Shown here: piece after piece, positions 22,384 to 63,237 of the stretch
Layout: each line of letters begins with the position of its first letter
Numbering within the stretch: the stretch's first letter is position 1
Assembly (NCBI RefSeq): GCF_021155765.1
Contig: NC_060116.1
Coordinates: forward strand, 11,656,001-11,720,000
Direction of reading: 5' to 3'
From: Diprion similis
Lineage: Eukaryota; Arthropoda; Insecta; Hymenoptera; Diprionidae
Length of the DNA stretch: 64,000 nucleotides
Made by a program: the position numbers and the translations under genes
The notes under the pieces: model-generated
Told to the model about the DNA's origin: nothing
Databases searched by the model: none
The model's input: the letters and a program-made list of their open reading frames with translations, nothing else

Positions 22384-22510
22384 TGAAGACAAAGTATTTC
22401 AATTTTCGGGAGCATTCCCGCGAGCGTTTCTCCTTCCTGCGTGTAAGGAAGTAAGGAAAACTTAATTATTGCGAGGGTTACGAGTAACAAGGAAAGAATT
22501 GCCGGCTCAC

Positions 22511-23233
22511 CAGAACGTAGACCGCAAACGGCATGACCAGGACGGCGACGAGGAGGTCGGCGAGGGCGAGACTGACGATGAAGTAGTTGGTGACAGTCTG
22601 CAGGGCGCGTTCGCGAAAAACGGCCAGTATGACGAGGACGTTGCCGAAGAGGGTGAGGCAGGGAACAACGACCAAAATCAGGGCCCACCAATTGTTAACG
22701 TTCGATTTATCGACGTCAGATTCGTCGCACTCGACGCGGCCCGTCCCCGTGGAAATGACCGAAGTGCAGCTTCCGTTTCCGCCGGTGGTTAAGTTCAGGT
22801 TGGTCCCCTCGTAGTAAGACGTCAGGTTCGAGAAGGCCGTGTAATTCAGTCGGTTAATGTAGTCGCTTATGTCGTCGAAGACGAAGAGGTCCGATATCGA
22901 CGCGTAGCTCTCGTTCCCGGACGTCGACGCCGACGGCGAAGAGACGGGCGGACCCGGCGTCGTCGAGTCGTTTAAAAGCCCCCCGAAACCGGCCCCGAAG
23001 TCGACGCTCAGGTCGGTGGTATCCTCGATTCGCGAGGTCAGGTTCGTCCTGTAGCCCTCCTTATCAAGCTCCCCGAGGACGTCGCCGGTCTCGTTTCCTC
23101 CTCTCGCCCGGGGATCGTAGAACCTGTTGCTCGACCGAGGCTGTGCGTCGTAGTGACGCGTGATGCTGCGAACTGTTGCGTTAATCCTCGCGGCCAGGTT
23201 GCTAGCGGGCGACGACGACACCTTCGGCTCCAT
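22511..23233 (-). CDS. Dop2R: D2-like dopamine receptor, first coding exon (partial gene)
   Basis: This exon encodes the N-terminal part of an aminergic G-protein-coupled receptor that I recognise as the insect D2-like (Gi-coupled) dopamine receptor. ATG at 23,233-23,231 gives 241 residues in exactly whole codons. An in-frame TGA at 23,365-23,363 precedes it, so the upstream non-ATG extension is not needed. Residues 1-180 form a long extracellular tail with many N-glycosylation sequons (NAT, NET, NLT, NDS, NES, NYT, NGS). TM1 is about residues 182-206 with the family's GN (N198). TM2 is about 216-241 with the LALADLL core (D226, the conserved sodium-site Asp) and the MPFAVY motif. The frame ends CTG then GTGAGC, a good donor, at the place where insect homologues continue into the first extracellular loop. 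TM3-TM7 and the DRY motif are not in this exon or seen elsewhere in the window. The exon is clearly more GC-rich than its surroundings. It could be a closely related aminergic subtype, but the TM1-TM2 text favours D2-like. Confidence 0.9.
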
Positions 23234-24828
23234 GCTGTCTCGGCCCGCCGCCCTTCGCCTTCCGCTCTCTTTCCTATTCGCCTCTATTTCATCTAACGCC
23301 CCAATCAAATCACGAGATTTTCGATTCCCGAGCCCACGAAGGTCCCCGCGTTCTGCTCGCCGTCATCTCCATCTGCACACCCAATCCACCTTGCGCGAGC
23401 TTCCGCCCTCCTTTGTTGCTCTTCGATCGTCCCTCTTTTTTCCTTTTTTCCTTTTTTCCTCCTCCTCTCCCAGCTACGCGTTCTTTTTCACAATGTAGAA
23501 CTCGGCTTTTACTGCCCCGAAGAGAACCGACCCAACCCAACCTCCCGACCACCTTCACTCCACTTCGTCATCGTCGATCGGGAATTTTCTTAAAACTCAC
23601 TCCGTCCACTTCTCATCAAACGGAGACGGTCGTTACCTGGAACAGAAAGAGAACGATTCTCGTCAAACTTCTGCATGTAACTTGTAAAGGAGATATAGAC
23701 TCTAATCCTTTTCAAGGCTTGAACCAGAAAGCGTACGACTGGTTTTTATAGCTACACGTGTAACGCTGAAAATCTCTCTTATACCTGAAAGTAGAATTTT
23801 GTTTAAAAAAAATTATAATAACATCGCCTGCCGACTACATTAATCGAATTCTACAATCGCAACACGTTTTCAAATGTTTTATACGTATTATTTCTTCCAG
23901 AGTCACCTTCCTTCCATCTTCTCTTTCTTTCATCCGTGAAATGACTAGATTTCGGTCTCAAGATTCGGGTGCCATTTTTTATACACTCGCGGTTTTTATC
24001 GGTGTATCTCGTACGTGGCTGCGGTGGTGATACCACGAGACACGGAATCACCGCTCTATCGCTGCTCGACTCGGTGGATGAAGAGAAGAGGAAAAAAGGG
24101 AAGAGCGAAAGAAAAAAAATGGAGCTGAACGGAAATTACGTGTGATTTGCGCTCCAAGGCCGCCCACTCGACCCACAACCGTAGCTGCGGAGAGATCAGC
24201 AATTGGATCTAGAATCGCAGTAAGGCGCAGGTACGTATCTACAGTGAAGGTAGGCCCTTCATTTAGCTAAGATCAGCACCGAGATATATTTTATGCAACC
24301 CTTAATTTGCATGCGAGAGCCTGTCCCACAACCCCTTCCACCTTGTCATTTCAAGGACCTTCCACGCATCCATCGTCGTTTTACCTCCCCGATATACCTA
24401 TGTAAGGAAATCTTCGTAATTGTTTTTCTTTTCAATTCAAGTGATATATTTTCTATTCATCCCTCTTACCCTGACCAGTTTCACGACTGTTATCAAAGTA
24501 GGGAAAAACAAAGAAAATAGAAAGAAGCAACCCTGCACCAACAGTATGGTAAAACTTTTCCTCCATTCAAAGGCGTCCATATATCCCCGTCGTAACGCGA
24601 AAGGACATGTATATGTGCAGTGTGTATACAGCCACCTACCGTCGGGGGTAGTAAACCATGCCTTCGAGAATCACCATTCAAATCGAATAGTCAATATATA
24701 GTAAGGAACGTGAGCGTGAAGGATCAGCGAAAGGTATTTGCGGTTACGATCCATCCGACACAGCACGATATACGACGCGAGATCTGCAGGAAAAACACAT
24801 ATGATTGTGGTGCAATGGCGATGGGAGG

Positions 24829-50061: not shown

Positions 50062-52882
50062 TTACCTTGGATTGTATGATTGCACCTTTGCACGCAGTAT
50101 AGAGGGACCAATGAGAGAGCTCAATGTATTTAGACACTGACTAGCAGCACTGGATGTGAGTGCATTTTCACTTTCTAATGCATAGAAAATGGAATCAAAG
50201 AAATCTTGCACTAAAGATTTCGTATATTTTTTCCCTATGCTGGTACAAATAATGGGAAGTGTTTTGCACAAATTTTCTAGTAGCTGCAAATGATTGCTAT
50301 AGTGACGCAGCTTTGAAATTTCAGCGAGGAGCGGTAAAATTTCGGTCACTACATTTAACGCAGGTCCTCCAATCATTGCTAGTTCTCCGAGTAGATGTAA
50401 ACACCTGACAAAAAATTTTTTCACTCGTGAAAATGGCATAGAAAATTCCATGAAAATCATTAAACTTTCTTTAGATCGTAAACATTTGGGTATTTTGTAT
50501 ACTAGAATAAATATTAAATACCCATCTGCTAGCTCCCATGGCTCGCTCGGTTTACGCTTCACGTGATCTAAATCAGTATGTCTGTTATACTTATACATCT
50601 GTGAACGGATTTATCTGTTAGAATATCTGGATGGGAAAAGATTCATCATTTTATTAGTGTGCATGCCCAGAAATTTTTACTTACCGGTACATCATCGGTG
50701 GGATCTGCAACTTGCGGACATCTACGAGTACTCGTATAATTTGTATTTAGCTTAGAGTTAGGCTCTGAAAATAGAAGACTAGAGTCTGGTTGGTTCCTGA
50801 CACCATTCAATCCCGCTACCATTCTTGGATGAACTTCAGCCAGAGCTGAAGTGCCATAAGCTCTGACTATGTTACTTAGTCCAATAGCTGCGTCCTGGCG
50901 TACACTTGCAATTGGATCTTCCAAATTCCGGAAAAACATAGGATACAAACTGGGAAGAGCCTTTTGAGATTCTTGCGGAAAAGTCTGTATCAAGCTGCCA
51001 CAAGCTAAGCACGCAGCTGGAATTTTATATGAAGATTAAATTTCCAATATTCATTTGAATCGTTACAGAGAAGGGCTAGAAATTAAAAGATATTACCGTC
51101 TCGGACTGGCCAAAAATCATCTTGAAAACAAATACCAAGTGCAGATAATAGTTGCTGAACATGTGGACGAACACATTCCGAATCAATTTTCGTTGCTAAT
51201 TCTGCGATACACGAACAAGCTGCCTCTCTAACTGCATGATTATCGCTTTGTGTTGTCTGAATATAAAAATGAATTATCAGTTTGCGAGGAAACTAATTCA
51301 GTGCATTAAAATGCATGTCTCAAATTTAACGAACTTACTTTTATGTAATAATTGACTGTTTCGTTTACAAATCTTTCTACTAGCGCTTTACCATCGGGAC
51401 CTGTAACTTGTCTCCAGGTTTCTTGTGAATAATTCCTAACTCCCTCAGCTACATAGTACCTGAAACCATCAGATTTGAATTGACATGGTGGAATTAGGCC
51501 GAGTAAGAAAAAGTAAGTCCTTCATTTCGCACCTGTTTAAACAAATCTTTGGTAAAAGTTCAGGATAATATGCTTCCCTGGACTTGGCCATAGGTAAGGC
51601 GACCAAAAACTTTCTAGTTGCAACACTGGCTGCCAAACGAACTTGCGACCAGTTGTCCGATAGGCCAGATGATAAATTGTGGGCAAACTCATTGCCGTAT
51701 GTATTGATAACAGTGTTATCACACTCACCATAATCTAGTAAAAAATGTTCTATGATTGTATTTCTTTAAATTTTAGTTTGTGACTTTAGCAGAGAATGAT
51801 GCTTACCGTCCACTGCATTAGTCACTAACGAAGCACAAAGATAAAACGCAGCTTCTCTAACAAATCGACAGGAGTGCTTGGTGCTCCGAAACACCAAATT
51901 CAACATCTCAGCGTCAATGAATGGTTGAAATTCATGACCACATCCTTCAGCAATATTTTGTAGACATTTTAACGTTGTTTCTAAAGCGGTTGACGAGTCA
52001 CCTGTTTCCTGATGGTCATTTATGTCAATTGAACTCTGTTTAGCATATTGTAAGAATCGGAGGGCAAACAATTTCTTTCTCCAATGGTATTGATAAATTG
52101 AATTTAGAATATCCGGAGGAAAACAACTTCCTCCTGATTTTTGGTGATGCAGAATAAGGTAATTAACAGACTACTATCTTACTACAGCTTTACTCACCGA
52201 GCTGGATGCAATTTTGTGCATAATCTGTTGCTGATCTGTATTCTGAGAATCAATTTGACTCGATAGGAGATTAACAAGGGACGTTTTTATCTCAGAATAC
52301 AAGAGAGGGCCTGCTTTTGCGCAAAGTGCGCCCAGAACTTCCCCTGTGACCAGAAAGTTAGCATTACTATTATGTCAAAAAGGAAAGCGTGATAGGTATG
52401 CTAAATAGCGAAACATAAACAGAACAAATAACTAAATGAATAGGTAATCGAAAAGCGGCACCTCTAATGTATTCTAAAATAAATGACAGTTGGTATTTTG
52501 AATACGCTTACACGGAATTGAAAATACTTTTATGGCAAATAGCCAAAGCGACAGTTTCAAATTACATACCGGCGGCTATTCGAATTCGTGGCTCATCGTC
52601 AATTAGGTACTGCAAAGCTGTGTCCTTATACTTATTTATAAATAGTTGGTCGTGTTCATTTTCTATGTTGAGATAACTAACGACTATTTTAGTGCCTAAT
52701 AAGCAGCCATATTTCGTCTCCCACGACGCCTCTCTGTTTGCAGCTGCGGCGATTAAGGCATTTTTGAATTGTTGCACAGTACTTTGGCTCGAAGCTGGCA
52801 GTATTTTATTTAATTCAGATATTGCCTGATCTCGCTCAAGTTTCATGGGGCTGCATAGAAGGTGCAATATTTCATGCGACAT
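50062..52882 (-). CDS. HEAT/armadillo-repeat protein, 9 exons, not identified further
   Basis: A 640-residue all-helical repeat protein. Exons in transcript order: 52,882-52,570; 52,343-52,198; 52,035-51,807; 51,734-51,533; 51,459-51,339; 51,256-51,097; 51,016-50,685; 50,598-50,522; 50,404-50,062 (TAA 50,064-50,062). All phases agree at GT-AG junctions. The ATG at 52,882 follows an acceptor at 52,914; joining it to the likely upstream untranslated exon (donor after 53,084) puts a TGA directly in frame, fixing this start. Repeat-like stretches include DDEPRIRIAAGE, RFVREAAFYLCASLV, NWSQVRLAASVATRKFL, NHAVREAACSCIAELATKI, FWPVRDAACLACGSLI and ASVRQDAAIGLSNIV, typical of HEAT helices with a conserved Arg/Asp pattern. 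Such proteins serve as scaffolds or karyopherin-like adaptors, but I cannot name an orthologue. The acceptor of exon 3 (AAACAG at about 52,036) has a weak pyrimidine tract and is the least certain join. Confidence 0.8.
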
Positions 52883-54871: not shown

Positions 54872-57527
54872 ATGAAGTGGTCTCCAGGCGCCCTATTTTG
54901 CGAACAGGTCGGAGAGCTGACGCGCGTTTTTTCTCAATGGAATGAATGCGAGCAGACAGTCGTGCTCTACGCTTTATTGCGTCGCATACCAGCTGTGCAA
55001 GCCAGATTCTTGGCCCAGGCTGTGCAACATTCACTCCATTCTGTTTCTGAGCTGAATTCACAGGAGCTAAATGCAAACAATCCTGGTAATTGATCCTTAC
55101 TACAAATTTTCAAATGTTGCACTTTTAAAACACAATCCAAATCGATCAGATTTGGGTGTTTGCTTTGAAATGATTGTTAGGATATTTGTTATTTTTCGTT
55201 TACATTTTTTGTGTTACTGTATTACAGGGTTCATCAATTCTTTGCTATCTGAAACAACGGAGACTGCTATTAATCAGCTTTTGACTCACCTTCCGTTGCT
55301 GCGTCCAGGAAATTCGGAATGCAAGCAGTGTTACTTAGTCGCTATACCAGAGCTGGTCAGCCACTGTGTCAGCACTGGACAATACACAGAGCAGACTCAA
55401 CAGCTCCTGAGCTACACCTTGATTCATCCAGCAATAACAAGTCAAGATAGACGGTCGCTAACCCAGTGGTTGAGGCACCTTGAAGAACGTATTAGTGGCA
55501 CACCCCCTATTCACAGCCTTGAAGAATACACCACAACAACTCCCAGGTCAGTCACGTGCCCAAATTCACTTGCTTTTGCATCATCAGAGAAATGAATGGT
55601 AAAAATTATCATCTTTGAATAGTGTATCAAATAGGTAATTTCTTCTGTGTTCATAGATGGGATAACATTTGGCCACGTACCTCAAAGCAGCACCAGCATC
55701 AGCAACAGCAAAACGAGTCAACCAACATTTTTGGTGCTCATCCAACATCTACGTTCAATCTACAGTATCCATCTCCTGTCGCTAGACAACGTCGTTCAAA
55801 TAGTCTTACACCACCAATTGCTGCTCATCATCTAGATGTGGTTGATCGTTCCAACAATACAACCACCATAAACAGGCACAAGCCACGCAGCTTCAGTGTG
55901 TCTGGCGATCATGCAGGTAATTCTTTGTCATTTATATTTAGGTTACTGTGATTTCGTTTGTAGTGGTGAAGCAGTTGTTTCGAAAATTGGAACGTATTAA
56001 ATAAAAACGGAATTTTCTTCGTTTTTTTTTTTATAGGAAGTTTACTTGGATTAGGTCCTCTCAGCCCCCAAAGTTCTTGTGCTAGTAGCGGCAGTGAAGG
56101 CCGTTTAGACGAAGCATCTACACGATCAGTGGCCAGCGGTATGAAAGGTTTGTTTGTCTCATTCCTCTTCTACGTGTACAATAGCTTTAATTTTTTGCGG
56201 CTGTCAATTAATATGTCTTATTTTTATCATATATGATTTTATTTGGTGTCCGTATCATATTAGATGTAGCTGCTTGGTTGAAAACGTTGAGACTACACAA
56301 GTACAGTTACTTATTTGCCACACTGAGTTATGAGGAGATGCTCGAGCTCACTGAGGAGCGATTGGCCGAGCAAGGTGTGACTAAGGGTGCCAGACACAAG
56401 TTGGCTCTATCTATTGCTAAGCTACAGCAACGCCACTCAACTTTGTTAGCACTGGAACGAGATTTACTTCAGCCAAATCGGGAGTCTAATCAACAAGCTT
56501 CCTTCTCCCAAGGGCAAGGCATAATTGCTAATGCATTGGATGAATTGAAAGTTATTGTAGCCACACCCATGAAACCCAGTCAAGAAAATGATCCCTCAGA
56601 TATTCCGACTCAGTTCACCAAAGTTGTGGGTAAACGTATGTATACTTGGCGAATTTGCTTATCGAGAAAAGTTTCAGGTACGTTAATTTACAGTGTAACT
56701 AAATTTTTATTCTTTTCTCTCGCCGCAGTGTGCAGCCGTTTGGCTTTAGAAAGTGTGGATGAAGGGGTACTGCTAAGCTGTGTTACTGTTCTGGAGAAAG
56801 CATTGCAGCACGACTGTTTTACTCCTAATCAAAAAGAAAAAATCCAACAGTGGCGCAGTAGACTCGGAAATCCAAGACCCACTCCCAAGTAAGTATCGTT
56901 CAAACAAACAATCAACTAGAGACTCTTTCTTATTTTGTATATTTTTACCATGAATTTTTATCTATGCGTAATACATATTATTGCATTCCAACTAATAGAT
57001 GGCAGCATAGCTACGGCTACAATAACAGAAGATATTGTAACCCTTCGCACCATAATCCGCACAATAGAAAGCCGAGTCTGAATTTGAGCCATGTTAACAA
57101 TGGTCATGCACACAGCAACACGTTTACATTGAGTCCACATAGAAACAGCATTTCAACTCCGTATCTTCAGAACAATCAAAATCAGAGTTTGACTCAGACT
57201 CAGAACAGTTTGCATCCGCTGCATGTAGCTGAGAAAAGACCTAGCTTACAGGAAACCAGTTTGGAGGTAAGGAATTTATTTTTTTTGTTTGAAGGAGGAT
57301 TTGTCTCGCATACAATATAATGGTAGAGATAAAACTTTGTTTAATATGTTTGTCGATTTTAGCAGCTGCAAAAAAGTTTACAACGCACCTACAGCGCTCC
57401 AAGGGACAATTTCCTGAGCCACTCGATGAGTCCATCGGAGACAACAGATCCTGAAATAAATTCGCGCCTTGAATCTCTCTGCCTGCGAATGACTGAGCAA
57501 GCCATCGGTGGTTTCGGTGAGGCCTAG
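54872..57527 (+). CDS. smg: Smaug: SAM-domain translational repressor, 8 coding exons
   Basis: RNA-binding post-transcriptional regulator of the Smaug/SAMD4 family, which recognises hairpin Smaug response elements and recruits deadenylase and repressor complexes in the cytoplasm. Exons: 54,872-55,085; 55,228-55,546; 55,657-55,916; 56,037-56,147; 56,264-56,635; 56,729-56,888; 56,999-57,266; 57,363-57,527 (TAG 57,525-57,527), all in phase, 622 residues. The N-terminal conserved region reads ALFCEQVGELTRVFSQWNECEQTVVLYALLRRI, then LLTHLPLLRPGN and QQLLSYTLIHPAI (Smaug similarity regions). The SAM domain is about residues 302-358 and includes the RNA-contacting GVTKGARHKLALSIAKL. The following helical part (LDELKVIV to FTPNQKEKIQQWRSRLG) corresponds to the PHAT region. 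The C-terminal third is His/Asn/Gln/Ser-rich and low in complexity. Start chosen because it is the first ATG in frame and an in-frame TAG lies upstream. Two splice sites are ambiguous (exon 5 donor, exon 8 acceptor). Confidence 0.95.
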
Positions 57528-60500
57528 TCCTTAATTATCATCATCGCAAAAGTAGTAAGTCTATATTATGATTGATTATTACTATATCGTAGTTAATTAG
57601 TATTACAGTTTAATCTATTAACTAATAATGCGGTGTCTTACTTTGGTAGCTCATTTCATAAAGTAATATTGAACTGACTGATCAAAATAGTTGCTAGAGT
57701 TAATTAATAAGCACGCACGAACGGACGCGTACTGGCCCACTCAAATATAATAATTGTACAAATGTCCAAAATTTGTGACATAAATTGTTGAAATCGCAAT
57801 TTTTTTCCTGAAACAGTGAACGGGTTTTCATCATTATTTGTAAATCATATTTTTATTACACTGTAATTGTATTATTTACGAATCGACAGAATTTGGCAAG
57901 CCAAATGCTATTAGAAAGATAGATTCTTTCCCTTACTATCTATTTACTATAAACTATATAGACGTATATAATAACGACATATGTGTATATATGTATGTAT
58001 ATAGTACAAACATATATGCGTACATATATACATACGTATGCATAGTAATAATGAAAATGAAAATGAAAAAAAAAAAAAAAGAATTGTAAAATACAAAAAT
58101 CAGCTGTACGTTATATTGCAATATTGTTTTGTGTTATCCATTTCGGGAAATGGAATCTTCTGATTTTAAGCGCTGAGAAGCATTAAGCGATTGCGTAATG
58201 CAATTCATTTTAATCAATGGACTGATTTTAACTTTTATTATTTGTGTTTGTAGAATTTGATACTTTCAAGCCCTAATAATCTGCACCATAATGTGCAAAG
58301 TCCCTATTTTTTTCAGTCGGACTGTAGGTAGAATATTAGCAGCATTGTGTTACGTATTGTGTTTTCGACTTCTTCGAAAAAACACACAATTTTATATTAT
58401 GTGGACTGAGACTGTGAAGCTAGATTGCTGGCATGCCCAAAGAATCATGTCATTTGCATCTCGAAGATAGTGTTCGTCATATTTGACGCTTTAGACTTGA
58501 TTTTATGCTGAGAATTAATTGATCAAGAATTTTTTTTATAAATTCTTACGTAAGCATAACAACTGAAATTGACATTTGAAACTTTATATGGTGATGAATA
58601 GTTAGTAGCAATATATTTGACAAGTGCTATCTGACGATAAAAGATTTAGAATAGTAATCATTGACTCAATCTAAAACATTAAGAAAATACGTTTTGAAAT
58701 GCATAAAAAATATGGGATACTCTGCAGTCTAGCTTTTATGCTTGAAATCTGTCGCTTCTTATTGTAATTGTGAGTATAAAAAGGATTTTTTTATTTCTTG
58801 ATTTTTAAATTCAATAATCATCTAATGATAATACAACAGACGGCGTTTTGCGACGATATCTTAACGATGTTTTCATCCATATAAAATCTACTAAAGTTAT
58901 TCTTAATTAAATGAATCGATGAATAAATAATTAATTGACTCGATGAATAAATAATTAATTGAGTAATTAGTTAATTGAATCATTCACTATGATAAAAAAA
59001 AAAAAAACAAAAAAAAACGAAAAAAAAACACGAAAGACTGACAATTTCACGCGTTTCGGTAGCTAAGCATAAAATGGAAAAAAAAAGAAAAAAAAAATCT
59101 TATATCCTGATTAAGCGAGACTTCTCTTTCATTAACGTCCTACGTACGCGTGAATGAAACAATTGGAAGACTGCGGAAGGAAAAACCTGTCAAAATAATT
59201 AAAAGAATTAGAGAGAAAGGAAGTAATCTTAGAATTTAGACTAATTGATTGAAACATTATATTCTATTATATATTAATCAACGTAAGGTTACGTGGTAAT
59301 TGTTGGTACAGCTTTGTTAATGGATAATTAGTACCTATATCTGTGCATGATTTACGTTTCTATAACGTCATTTGTCTGATAATAACTGATGGGCGGTTTG
59401 AAATCTGAAGTGTATACCACACTATTGACATTGACATTACCTGCAACGTGCCTATCCATAGGCTGCATTGAATGATTTTTATATATTAATGGACGAAAGC
59501 AAGTACACAAAAAAATGTAAACAAAAAAAAAAGTAAAAAGTAAATTGGAAAAAAAAAAAAAAATGATTTGACAAGTACGATGTTGTCGATACCATTGACA
59601 CGTAGCAAAAGCTATCTCCGTATAAAGATCAGTGCACAAATGAAGAAGCGTACATAGAAGAAAGTCGTTGGTATGTTGCTGAGTACGTAGCGAATTGAAG
59701 TTTTTAGAATAATTGTAAACTGTAGGTAATTTTCTTTCACTTGGTTATGGTGAAAAACAATCGCTAAAAGTAAAAATAATGTTTGGTCGCTACGTACTGC
59801 GATTAAAGTGGTCTGCAGTGCTGTGAGAATGGTTATTGGCAGAGCTATGCCGAGCAATTTTCTGGGGTACACTTAAGCATTTGAGATAGGAAAATTATAA
59901 TGAAATATTTAATTTTTACACCCAGTTTGTTCGTTTGGTTCTCTTTTAAACTATCTTTAATATAATTATTTGCATATCTTTTTTTAAACATGAAATTCGA
60001 TGACACTAAACGAGCTCATTACATGTATACATATACAACTACACATACTACAATATATGCACTTATGCACGTACATATAATATTTACGAATTCTGAGATG
60101 ATTTAAAGCTAGTCAAACGATACGTTTCTATCAGCTAACTACATTGTTATTGTTATTTTTTTTTCTTTTCCTTTATCATGACACTGTGCATCTTACATTT
60201 TTGAACAAGACGTCTTGTACACCGTACATATTATTATTATTATACTGTAAACAAGAGAGTTAGAAAAGAAGAAAATATATTTAAAAAAAAATAAGAAGAC
60301 TGCTCCTATGCTATTTCTGCAATTAATTATGTCATTGTATAAGTAATCGAAAGAAGAAACACTAATCTATGAAGGCAGGACCTAATTAAACAGAGGATGT
60401 GAGAGACTTTATTTGCAAAAAAGAAAAGAAGTATATGAAATGATACCACACTGCTGACTGGTCGGATATTTTCACTTAATATTTGTAAATTTTATAATTA

Positions 60501-60770
60501 TAATTATTATCATTATCATTAATATTATTATTTTTATTAATATTATTAAACAGTCTTCGTTCAACGATATCATAACCACGAGTTAGATTAATAATCCTAT
60601 ATCGCGTGTAATGCACGGAAGAAAAGTGCTTAGTTGCGTAGCCGCCTAAAATATATTACGAGCTATGATTTTGTCTCGTTTCGACAGTGTTCTCAATCAT
60701 TTACATAAACGGCGACCATTATTATTCTTACTATTATTATTGTATTAAAATGAATTATTACACATGTATA
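57528..60770 (+). other. smaug 3' untranslated region (long, end uncertain)
   Basis: More than 3 kb of AT-rich noncoding DNA follow the smaug stop codon with no open frame of interest. It holds TGTATATA-type Pumilio-like motifs around 57,985-58,000, poly-A runs, and a 23-bp tandem duplication at 58,916-58,962. Several AATAAA-like signals exist, but none stands out as the true end. Confidence 0.4.
58916..58962. repeat. 23-bp perfect tandem duplication
   Basis: The unit at 58,916-58,938 (starting TCGATGAATAAATAATTAAT) is repeated exactly at 58,940-58,962 with a period of 24. Each copy contains an AATAAA hexamer. Confidence 0.85.
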
Positions 60771-61679
60771 TGAGGGATTCTACACGAAGTCGGCCACTTT
60801 TTTTTCGACCAGATCTTCATTTTCAGATCTATCCCCATAATTGGGTATATGAAAGTCCTACTGAAAGGCACTCTGCGTATTTTTTTTGAGATTTTTAAAT
60901 TCATTATTTTGGAAAATGCCATTTTTTTCAAATTAATATATCTCGGACTTGAAGTAACTGAAAAAAAATGCTCCACATAAAAGTTGTATTTTTGTGTAAG
61001 CTTTTGAGCAGACGACTTGAAATAATTTTCACGTTCCGGTAACGCTGATTTTTTACCAAAAAAATTGGAAATTATTTTTTTATTCAAAAAAGGCCACTTT
61101 TTTTTTGCTGAAAAAATTACAGGGTCTTTCAGTATGTCTGACGATATCACGAAAAAATCGCAAGAGTGGCACCGCCGGAGGTTCCGGTATAAAAAAATTA
61201 ATTTGTGTGGTTTCATTTTTTTACCCTAGAACCTCGATCCGAAAACCACACAAATTAATTTTTTTATACCGGAACCTCCGGCGGTGCCATTCGGGCGATT
61301 TTTTTGTGATATCGTCAGACATACTGAAAGACCCTGTAATTTTTTCAGCAAAAACAAAGTGTCCTTTTTTTAATAAAAAAATAATTTCCAATTTTTTTGG
61401 TAAAAAATCAGCGTTACCGGAATGTGAAAATTATTTCAAGTCGTCTGCTCGAAAGCTTACACAAAAATACAACTTTTATGTGGAGACATTTTTTTCCAGT
61501 TACTTCAAGTTTCCGAGATATATTAATTTGAAAAAAAATGACATTTTCCAAAATAATGAATTTAAAAATTTGAAAAAAATCACGCAGAGTGCCTTTCAGT
61601 AGTACTTTCATATAACCAATTATGGGGAAGATCTGAGATGGTCGAAAAAAAAGTGGCCGGTTTCGTGGAGAATCCCTCA
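60771..61679. mobile_element. 909-bp foldback (palindromic) element
   Basis: Two arms of about 440 bp, 60,771-61,214 and 61,241-61,679, are near-perfect reverse complements separated by about 26 bases. The tips are TGAGGGATTCT and AGAATCCCTCA, and the flanks are TATA on both sides, consistent with a TATA or TA target duplication. Similar but spurious reading frames occur on opposite strands of the two arms (PHKLIFLYRNLRRCHS), as expected of an inverted duplication. There is no transposase, so if mobile it is a non-autonomous hairpin MITE or foldback element. Arm divergence is a few per cent by eye, suggesting a fairly young insertion or duplication. It lies between smaug and the secreted-protein gene, possibly in the smaug 3'UTR. 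Confidence 0.85.
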
Positions 61680-62425
61680 TATATGCATATATCTACGCAG
61701 ATATATATAAATATATATATAAGTCGTACTTTGGAATGTGGCGTTTTCGACCGTACATTTGTAATTCTATACGTTACAATATATACCTATATATCTATAG
61801 ATTTTATTTTCAAACGGAGTAGCTTCAGCTAATTGATCAAATTTTGTGCGAATATCTAAATTTGTATTAAATGTAAATGAATAAATAACTATCTGCATCT
61901 ATCACTTATTTAAGTAGACGTGGATATGATGATGTGCTACAAGTGAACAGTCGCAAACGCACTTTTGCAAAATTAGTCACGTAAGCTGGACAACTTGTAA
62001 AATATGCAATTTTTGTACTGCCGAAAACACGAAGAAAAAAAATATTGAAAAACTTGCAAAAAAAAAAAAAAAAGGACGAACATTATTCAAATAGTCAGAG
62101 GGTACACTGAAATTGTAACGCGAAAGAACATTTTTCAATAAAAAAAAAAAACAATTATTATAAAACAAAATTTTCGTATACAATAATCGTATTTTACACG
62201 TAAATAATGAACATTTGTATTTGTATAGAAAGTCACGGGAATAACTGCGTTATTTTCTAAAATACTTCACCTGTTTAACATGAAAATAATGTTTAAATCT
62301 GAATCTGAATGTCATTAACACGGTTTTATATAATGTTACTAAAGAAAATATAATAATAAAATTTACCTCGTGTTGCGCGTATTCGAATAATGGCAAATTT
62401 CGATTATTTTTCACGATTGCTATTG
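61680..62425. other. AT-rich spacer / 3' flank of the secreted-protein gene
   Basis: Poly-A runs and TA-rich DNA. It must contain the 3'UTR of the minus-strand gene ending at 62,426; a minus-strand AATAAA is seen at about 61,804-61,809, but nothing nearer is clear. Confidence 0.4.
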
Positions 62426-63237
62426 TTAGTGAAGTCCGTAATCGTAGTCAAAATCGTATTGATCGTAGTATGCGAACGGTTCTGCGATATTGTTGATTTC
62501 AACGTGCTCAATATCATTTGACGTATACGGATCTGTAAAATATTTTTTCATCAATGATTCTCACGATTCTGTGTATACTTTGTCATTTAATTATAATCAA
62601 TTTTATTCCTATCGTCTTACCTGCGTTGTCAGAAGCGAAAAAAAGATCGTCGGTATCGTCAACAATAACAAACGGTAATGCTTTTGTAGGCGAAATTTCA
62701 TACTGCAGTTCTAAACAAATATAAAATGAAAAAATAACGAGCAAACTTGGGTTACGGACGTAAACTCAAAGTCACCCCGTACTATGTCTGTATAGTAAAC
62801 AAGTTCAAGTTCGAGTTTACGCCGCCTTATCGCTCTGCACAGAATCGAGCCGGTTTCAGTTTCATTTTGTCTGCGGCCGGGTTGGGATCTATCCAAATTT
62901 CTTACCGTGAAGATTGTGTGACCGAGTGTTCGGCTTGTTCCGGTTTTCTATGTTTACGTTTTGATAGCTAGTCGCGCCGTGGCCATGATGGACTGTGTGC
63001 AAGTTCGGAAAGTTATTCTCCTGCAAGGTGTGATCAACGATACTTCGGGTGATTCTTCCGGCCCACGAAGCAGCGATCATCATCATCATCGTGCACAGCT
63101 GAAAGGTAGAATATCAACGTGAAAATACTTCTAGTTTTTAAAAAATTTTTACGTCTGTAACCATGACTGTACGATTGATTGTAATCATGAATTGGTTATA
63201 CAAATTTTTACGGACAATCACTCACTAATAATTTCAT
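62426..63237 (-). CDS. Small secreted acidic Tyr/Asp-rich protein, 4 exons, unrecognised
   Basis: Exons in transcript order: 63,237-63,226; 63,098-62,906; 62,710-62,621; 62,532-62,426 (TAA 62,428-62,426). Every junction is GT-AG and phases match, giving 133 residues. Exon 1 codes only MKLL. Joined to exon 2 it makes a signal peptide, MKLLLCTMMMMIAASWAG, with cleavage likely after about residue 18. The middle is His/Asn-rich (HTVHHGHG) with a few single Arg sites (GRITRS, NTRS) but no Lys-Arg dibasic site. The C-terminal half is strongly acidic and ends AYYDQYDFDYDYGLH, the kind of Asp-flanked tyrosine cluster that is often sulphated in secreted proteins. No cysteine framework is present after the signal peptide. 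I do not recognise the family. It could be a neuropeptide-like precursor, a gland product or an extracellular matrix peptide. The reality of the gene rests on an open frame across four exons with good splice sites. Confidence 0.72.

Follow-up and report, generated by a model that had tools for sequence, protein, structure and literature searches.

The window, by which we mean the whole 64,000-nt stretch of Diprion similis contig NC_060116.1 analysed in this work, carries a large foldback element downstream of a putative smaug gene. Pfam matches to SAM_1 and to part of PHAT support the presence of a Smaug-type gene on the plus strand, and the frame closed by the TAG codon at 57525-57527 ends in what we take, by recognition, to be the C-terminus of its product (Table 1). 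The element starts 3,244 nt past this stop codon. Hexamers AATAAA occur before the element at 58922 and 58946 and beyond it at 61880, 62137 and 62355, ATTAAA is present at six places before it, and a further AATAAA lies within its right arm, the mirror of which starts at 61079 on the minus strand. Beyond the element a minus-strand frame resembles the last exon of a convergent gene; the minus-strand AATAAA at 61803 is located between this frame and the element, outside the latter. Judged from these sequence features, the element may be intergenic or may belong to a long smaug 3′UTR. Rfam returned nothing at gathering scores in 57500-62500. Elsewhere in the window the minus strand carries an exon for a GPCR of the rhodopsin family whose N-terminus is long (22478-23362; Pfam 7tm_1, E 1.9e-13), and a frame with weak HEAT-type Pfam matches at 50062-50610, the best of which, to Huntingtin N-HEAT, has an E of 3.8e-5 and falls short of the curated cut-off.

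Table 1 Features of the putative smaug 3′ region and of the foldback element (window coordinates)
Feature	Position	Strand	Basis
Open stretch with smaug SAM domain and part of PHAT	56212..56892	+	Pfam SAM_1 E 8.7e-8, PHAT E 1.4e-5
Frame ending at the likely smaug C-terminus, stop TAG 57525-57527	57363..57527	+	frame read
Left target-site duplication ATAT	60768..60771	.	sequence read in register
Left arm / terminal inverted repeat, starts GAGGGATTC	60772..61213	+	repeat search, fold, 12-copy alignment
Asymmetric spacer, 29 nt	61214..61242	.	repeat search, 12-copy alignment
Right arm / terminal inverted repeat, ends CCCTC	61243..61678	-	repeat search, fold, 12-copy alignment
AATAAA hexamer in right arm, candidate polyadenylation signal	61372..61377	+	hexamer scan
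Right target-site duplication ATAT	61679..61682	.	sequence read in register
Frame like the last exon of a convergent gene	62426..62560	-	read by eye

Structure of the foldback element

The foldback at 60772-61678 is confirmed as a real structure, a near-perfect palindrome of 907 bp flanked by ATAT on both sides. In the repeat search inverted pairs covered most of 60767-61213 against 61243-61683, those in register being 83-95% complementary, and blastn self-comparison of the window (E up to 1e-5) gave a single pair, which spans 60767-61683 and is 90.5% identical across 937 columns. The longest inverted match found by self-comparison elsewhere in the 64 kb was 70 nt. The self-inverted score of the foldback reached 1201 bits, whereas none of 200 sequences obtained by dinucleotide shuffling of 60001-62600 exceeded 49.1 bits. 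The repeat search, the self-comparison and the shuffled controls thus bear out the large near-perfect foldback with arms of about 440 bp described in the first-pass annotation, which had given the spacer as 26 bases; the innermost arms were measured 29 nt apart.

The arms, about 440 bp each, are 95.1% identical over ungapped columns, and the left one contains near 60812-60820 a 9-bp insertion that is absent from the other 11 aligned copies described below. As a single RNA strand the element is predicted to fold end to end, with an energy of -651 kcal/mol. The tandem-repeat scan of 60760-61690 detected no tandem array at a score of 30 or more, and Pfam returned nothing at E up to 0.1 for four frames of the element itself, the longest included.

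Family members and their insertion sites

Screening the genome from which the window comes (269 Mb, 60 contigs) with one arm had been proposed in the first-pass annotation for copy number, terminal repeats and target site; done with the left arm, it revealed a multi-copy family. The counts being lower bounds, at least 40 matches fell into 24 places, of which at least 21 were at 79% identity or more and three near 70%. Sixteen of these 21 places matched on both strands and hence hold two arms. An end-to-end alignment was made of the twelve copies whose two arms are complete or almost complete, although the right arm is shortened in L019 and L027 and the left tip of L013 is damaged; the remaining nine places hold internally deleted or truncated copies or single arms. 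The 29-nt spacer is common to all twelve aligned copies, in which it is identical or nearly so, and since it is both conserved and asymmetric it serves as an orientation marker. The arms differ from the family majority sequence by 1.2-4.0% in 11 of the 12 copies, the twelfth (L027) representing a divergent subfamily at 15%. With values of 2.6% and 2.8% for its two arms the window copy is ordinary among the close copies. A 38-nt piece of the arm had no exact counterpart in viral contigs. L063 (C1:16420000-16424600) holds another foldback, related to the window arms at 70-74%; two long minus-strand frames in this stretch resemble, by eye, a hAT-type transposase.

The ends of the family, read in register, are GAGGG...CCCTC with a 4-bp target duplication. 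At the window site the tip had initially been read as TGAGGG with TATA flanks, but in register the tip is GAGGGATTC and the flank is a 4-bp duplication of ATAT. Flanks were tabulated for 26 elements, 15 of the window family (family A) and 11 others with related tips. Identical 4-bp flanks were found in 20 of the 26, including 12 of the 15 family-A copies with both ends examined. The exceptions in family A are L012 and L019, with one base different each, and L013 with its damaged left tip; outside it they are L050, L057 and L065, the last with flanks GTAT and ATAT that differ by one base. Most duplications are ATAT, and a few sit in AT repeats. ATAT duplications alone cannot separate a 4-bp from a TA duplication; the pairs GTAT/GTAT (L015) and ATAA/ATAA (L024) in family A and ATTT/ATTT in a second family, family B (L049), match over 4 bp and therefore argue against duplication of TA.

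Paralogous sites that lack the element exist for two copies other than the window's, L009 and L024. L009 (C2:19026243-19027416) interrupts an older palindromic repeat, about 230-260 bp long, at its middle, and the joined flanks of L009 match about 10 uninserted copies of this repeat almost end to end at 65-72% identity. Since a gap of 22 nt falls at the junction, the alignment supports an uninterrupted paralogue but not the exact duplication. At least 49 further genome matches (65-85%) were recorded for the same joined flanks. For L024 the joined flanks are 80% identical to a paralogue that lacks the insertion and in which the target bases themselves have diverged. A genome search with the joined flanks of L022 recovered only its own flanks and no empty site. 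Multiple copies, defined tips, target duplications, paralogous uninterrupted sites and frames devoid of Pfam matches uphold the view, already put forward in the first-pass annotation, that this is a mobile, non-autonomous element.

Sequence variation between the arms

Strong or regular homogenisation of the arms was rejected, given that the arms of one copy are about as similar (95.9% identity) as a left and a right arm taken from two copies (95.5%). Traces of rarer events are present. At 17 columns L009, L010 and L013 agree on different alleles for the left and the right arm. In L014 the alleles are swapped at nine of these columns (15-279) and unchanged at one (446), and both arms carry the right allele at one column (63) and the left allele at six (287-390). 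The spacer of L014 keeps the common orientation. The likeliest reading of this copy is an inversion isomer, produced by a crossover between the arms that inverted the middle, with a conversion tract in addition; independent conversions would be a less simple reading.

L014, L016 and the window element each carry one change that no other copy has and that appears in both arms. These three cases compare with an expectation of 0.23 (Poisson P 0.002, if sites are independent and the same base arises with a chance of 0.6). A permutation test on shared variants gave 9 against 2.5 in the inner third of the arm (P 0.005) and was not significant for the outer third (P 0.50), the middle third (P 0.75) or the arm as a whole (P 0.16). 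Occasional exchange is thus likely, on modest support, in which the two arms of an element would recombine with each other, mainly near the centre, flipping the middle and copying variants from arm to arm.

A sister family with a larger middle

A search with a 20-bp tip pattern, allowing up to 3 mismatches and with the reversed pattern as control, gave 81 hits against 3 for the control and revealed several families with a related tip. One copy of family B, L049, measures 4.1 kb; internal frames lie between its terminal inverted repeats (TIRs), which are about 337 bp long and 97% identical. A stretch of 243 residues of the longest frame has at least 148 matches in the same genome. Motifs of L049 such as CDF...NY, SDGA and HGKG.CDG are ones that we take, by eye, to resemble a DDE-type catalytic core; a search of the literature for a transposase motif string had no hit. 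The three L049 frames had nothing better than E 0.05 in Pfam, the best PDB match of the longest frame was only at E 0.07, and no relative of it was found in viral contigs. From their context and from the motifs judged by eye, the L049 frames appear transposase-like.

Internal deletion is the standard route from an autonomous transposon to a miniature inverted-repeat element (MITE). The six other two-armed family-B copies at 97% identity or more in the arm search are all internal deletions of L049, about 97-99% identical to it and of four different deletion structures. Family B and the window family are alike in the GAGG tip, the ATAT-type duplication, the long TIRs and the occurrence of internally deleted copies. 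They differ in that the similarity of the tips extends over only about 20 bp, the arm searches reporting no match between the families, and in that family B keeps a larger middle and one copy with transposase-like frames (L049), whereas the window family has almost nothing between its arms. A family-A copy with a transposase between the arms was not found among the best candidates of the arm and tip searches. The facing tip pairs that were read lie about 420-1,030 bp apart, except for one 15-kb pair; considered as a possible transposase-bearing copy, this pair proved to belong to a large inverted duplication.

Two further arrangements were observed in the course of these searches. A lineage that includes L065 (C14:799800-804300) is about 50% identical to the family-B protein stretch; its matches, at least 38, all cover one range of the query (76/77 to 178/179), and most of them contain two TAG codons. 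L065 lies in an element with TIRs of about 540 bp and a GAGCGG tip. L029 and L030 (C1:15855998-15872418) form a large inverted duplication with arms of 6,705 bp that are 99.985% identical (one mismatch) and reach both ends of the fetched stretch, and a middle of about 3 kb with frames resembling, by eye, a PIF/Harbinger transposase. Such a structure would be a giant palindrome of very recent origin or else an artefact of assembly.

Discussion

The window element is most probably a near-palindromic Sola2-like MITE, composed of two long TIRs from which nearly all of the interior has been deleted, a reading to which we assign a probability of about 0.8. As in MITEs generally, dispersed copies with conserved ends, TIRs and a duplication of fixed length go together with empty sites (L009, L024) and with no transposase coding of its own. 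The duplications ATAT, GTAT, ATAA and ATTT are AT-rich and 4 bp long, which agrees with the ATAT, AAAT, ATTT and AWWT target duplications given for Sola2 in PMC3627910. The examples in that study have terminal repeats of 12-21 bp, as compared with about 440 bp here. Sola2 is among the superfamilies to which iMITEdb assigns insect MITEs; consensus sequences above 800 bp were dropped from that survey, so that an element of 907 bp would be missed there (PMC5199201).

By comparison with family B, the window family is best seen as an extreme product of the same deletion route. The interior of a long-TIR transposon would have been almost wholly deleted, leaving two TIRs of about 440 bp that nearly touch. 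A transposase made elsewhere would recognize the GAGG-type tips and insert the element by cut and paste into AT-rich 4-bp targets, with ATAT duplicated at the window site. For this family we infer that it derives by deletion, belongs to Sola2, moves by cut and paste and takes its transposase from elsewhere.

Assignment to the MITEs of the Tc1/mariner type, with tips TGAGGG...CCCTCA and duplication of TA, is what the first-pass description of tips and flanks would suggest, but it is improbable. TA does adjoin TGAGG/CCTCA in most copies, because the commonest 4-bp flank is ATAT, but under a TA duplication the pairs of L015, L024 and L049 would call for mutated tips or no duplication at all, and on these pairs duplication of TA was rejected. 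In Pfam, moreover, no mariner transposase matched the L049 frames at E up to 1. It is about as improbable that the element is a classical Foldback (FB-like), with arms grown by internal tandem repeats and no relation to the family-B transposase. The arms of FB hold tandem repeats. In overall shape, with long inverted arms, a short middle and frequent lack of autonomy, the FB, Galileo, Tetris and Tm1 foldbacks do resemble the window element; its arms, however, are free of tandem subrepeats in 60760-61690, which led us to reject this assignment, its arm length and spacer are common to the aligned copies apart from the L019 and L027 deletions, and its tips and duplications resemble those of family B. 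According to PMC4079207, foldback shapes may have arisen independently in different lineages, which would allow for such an origin, and most foldback elements seem related to Mutator, with exceptions; the tips and duplication of the window element point instead to a Sola2-like source.

A role for the host deserves equally little credence. The repeat would in that case be a hairpin-RNA locus, kept for dsRNA formed by read-through from smaug that yields siRNAs against the family or alters smaug expression. The near-complete predicted fold and the position downstream of smaug speak for it, as do inverted-repeat hairpin loci which, according to PMC5392987, give rise to esiRNAs in Drosophila culture cells; a long RNA hairpin is common to those loci and to the window element, in which it is only potential. 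Yet the divergence of the window arms falls within the range of the other ten close copies and so gives no sign of special preservation, and the AATAAA hexamers upstream of the element could end smaug before it. Mirroring of one arm during assembly is scarcely credible. Inverted duplications do arise in that way, and a suspicious one is present elsewhere in the assembly, but the two arms disagree at some 5% of sites, and the same architecture recurs at other loci, with distinct flanks where these were read, both of which make a mirrored artefact unlikely.

Returning to the Sola2-like MITE, we found no description of a Sola2 foldback among the open-licence papers listed by literature searches. 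The window element adds a long-armed, almost fully palindromic family to the apparent Sola2 lineage. Its RNA may have consequences of its own, and a long shot among them is that read-through from smaug produces dsRNA of up to 440 bp, giving siRNAs that would silence at least 20 other copies in trans, and that the symmetric internal AATAAA and the hairpin tune the 3′ ends of smaug. If that were true, recombination between the arms would keep the hairpin usable over time, and if smaug RNA includes the element, it would lend itself readily to testing how insects deal with long dsRNA in a 3′UTR. The spacer-marked copies constitute a natural record of recombination between the arms of a palindrome, with one likely inversion isomer and a few candidate tracts, and the sister family B, in the same genome, shows how such elements arise by internal deletion.
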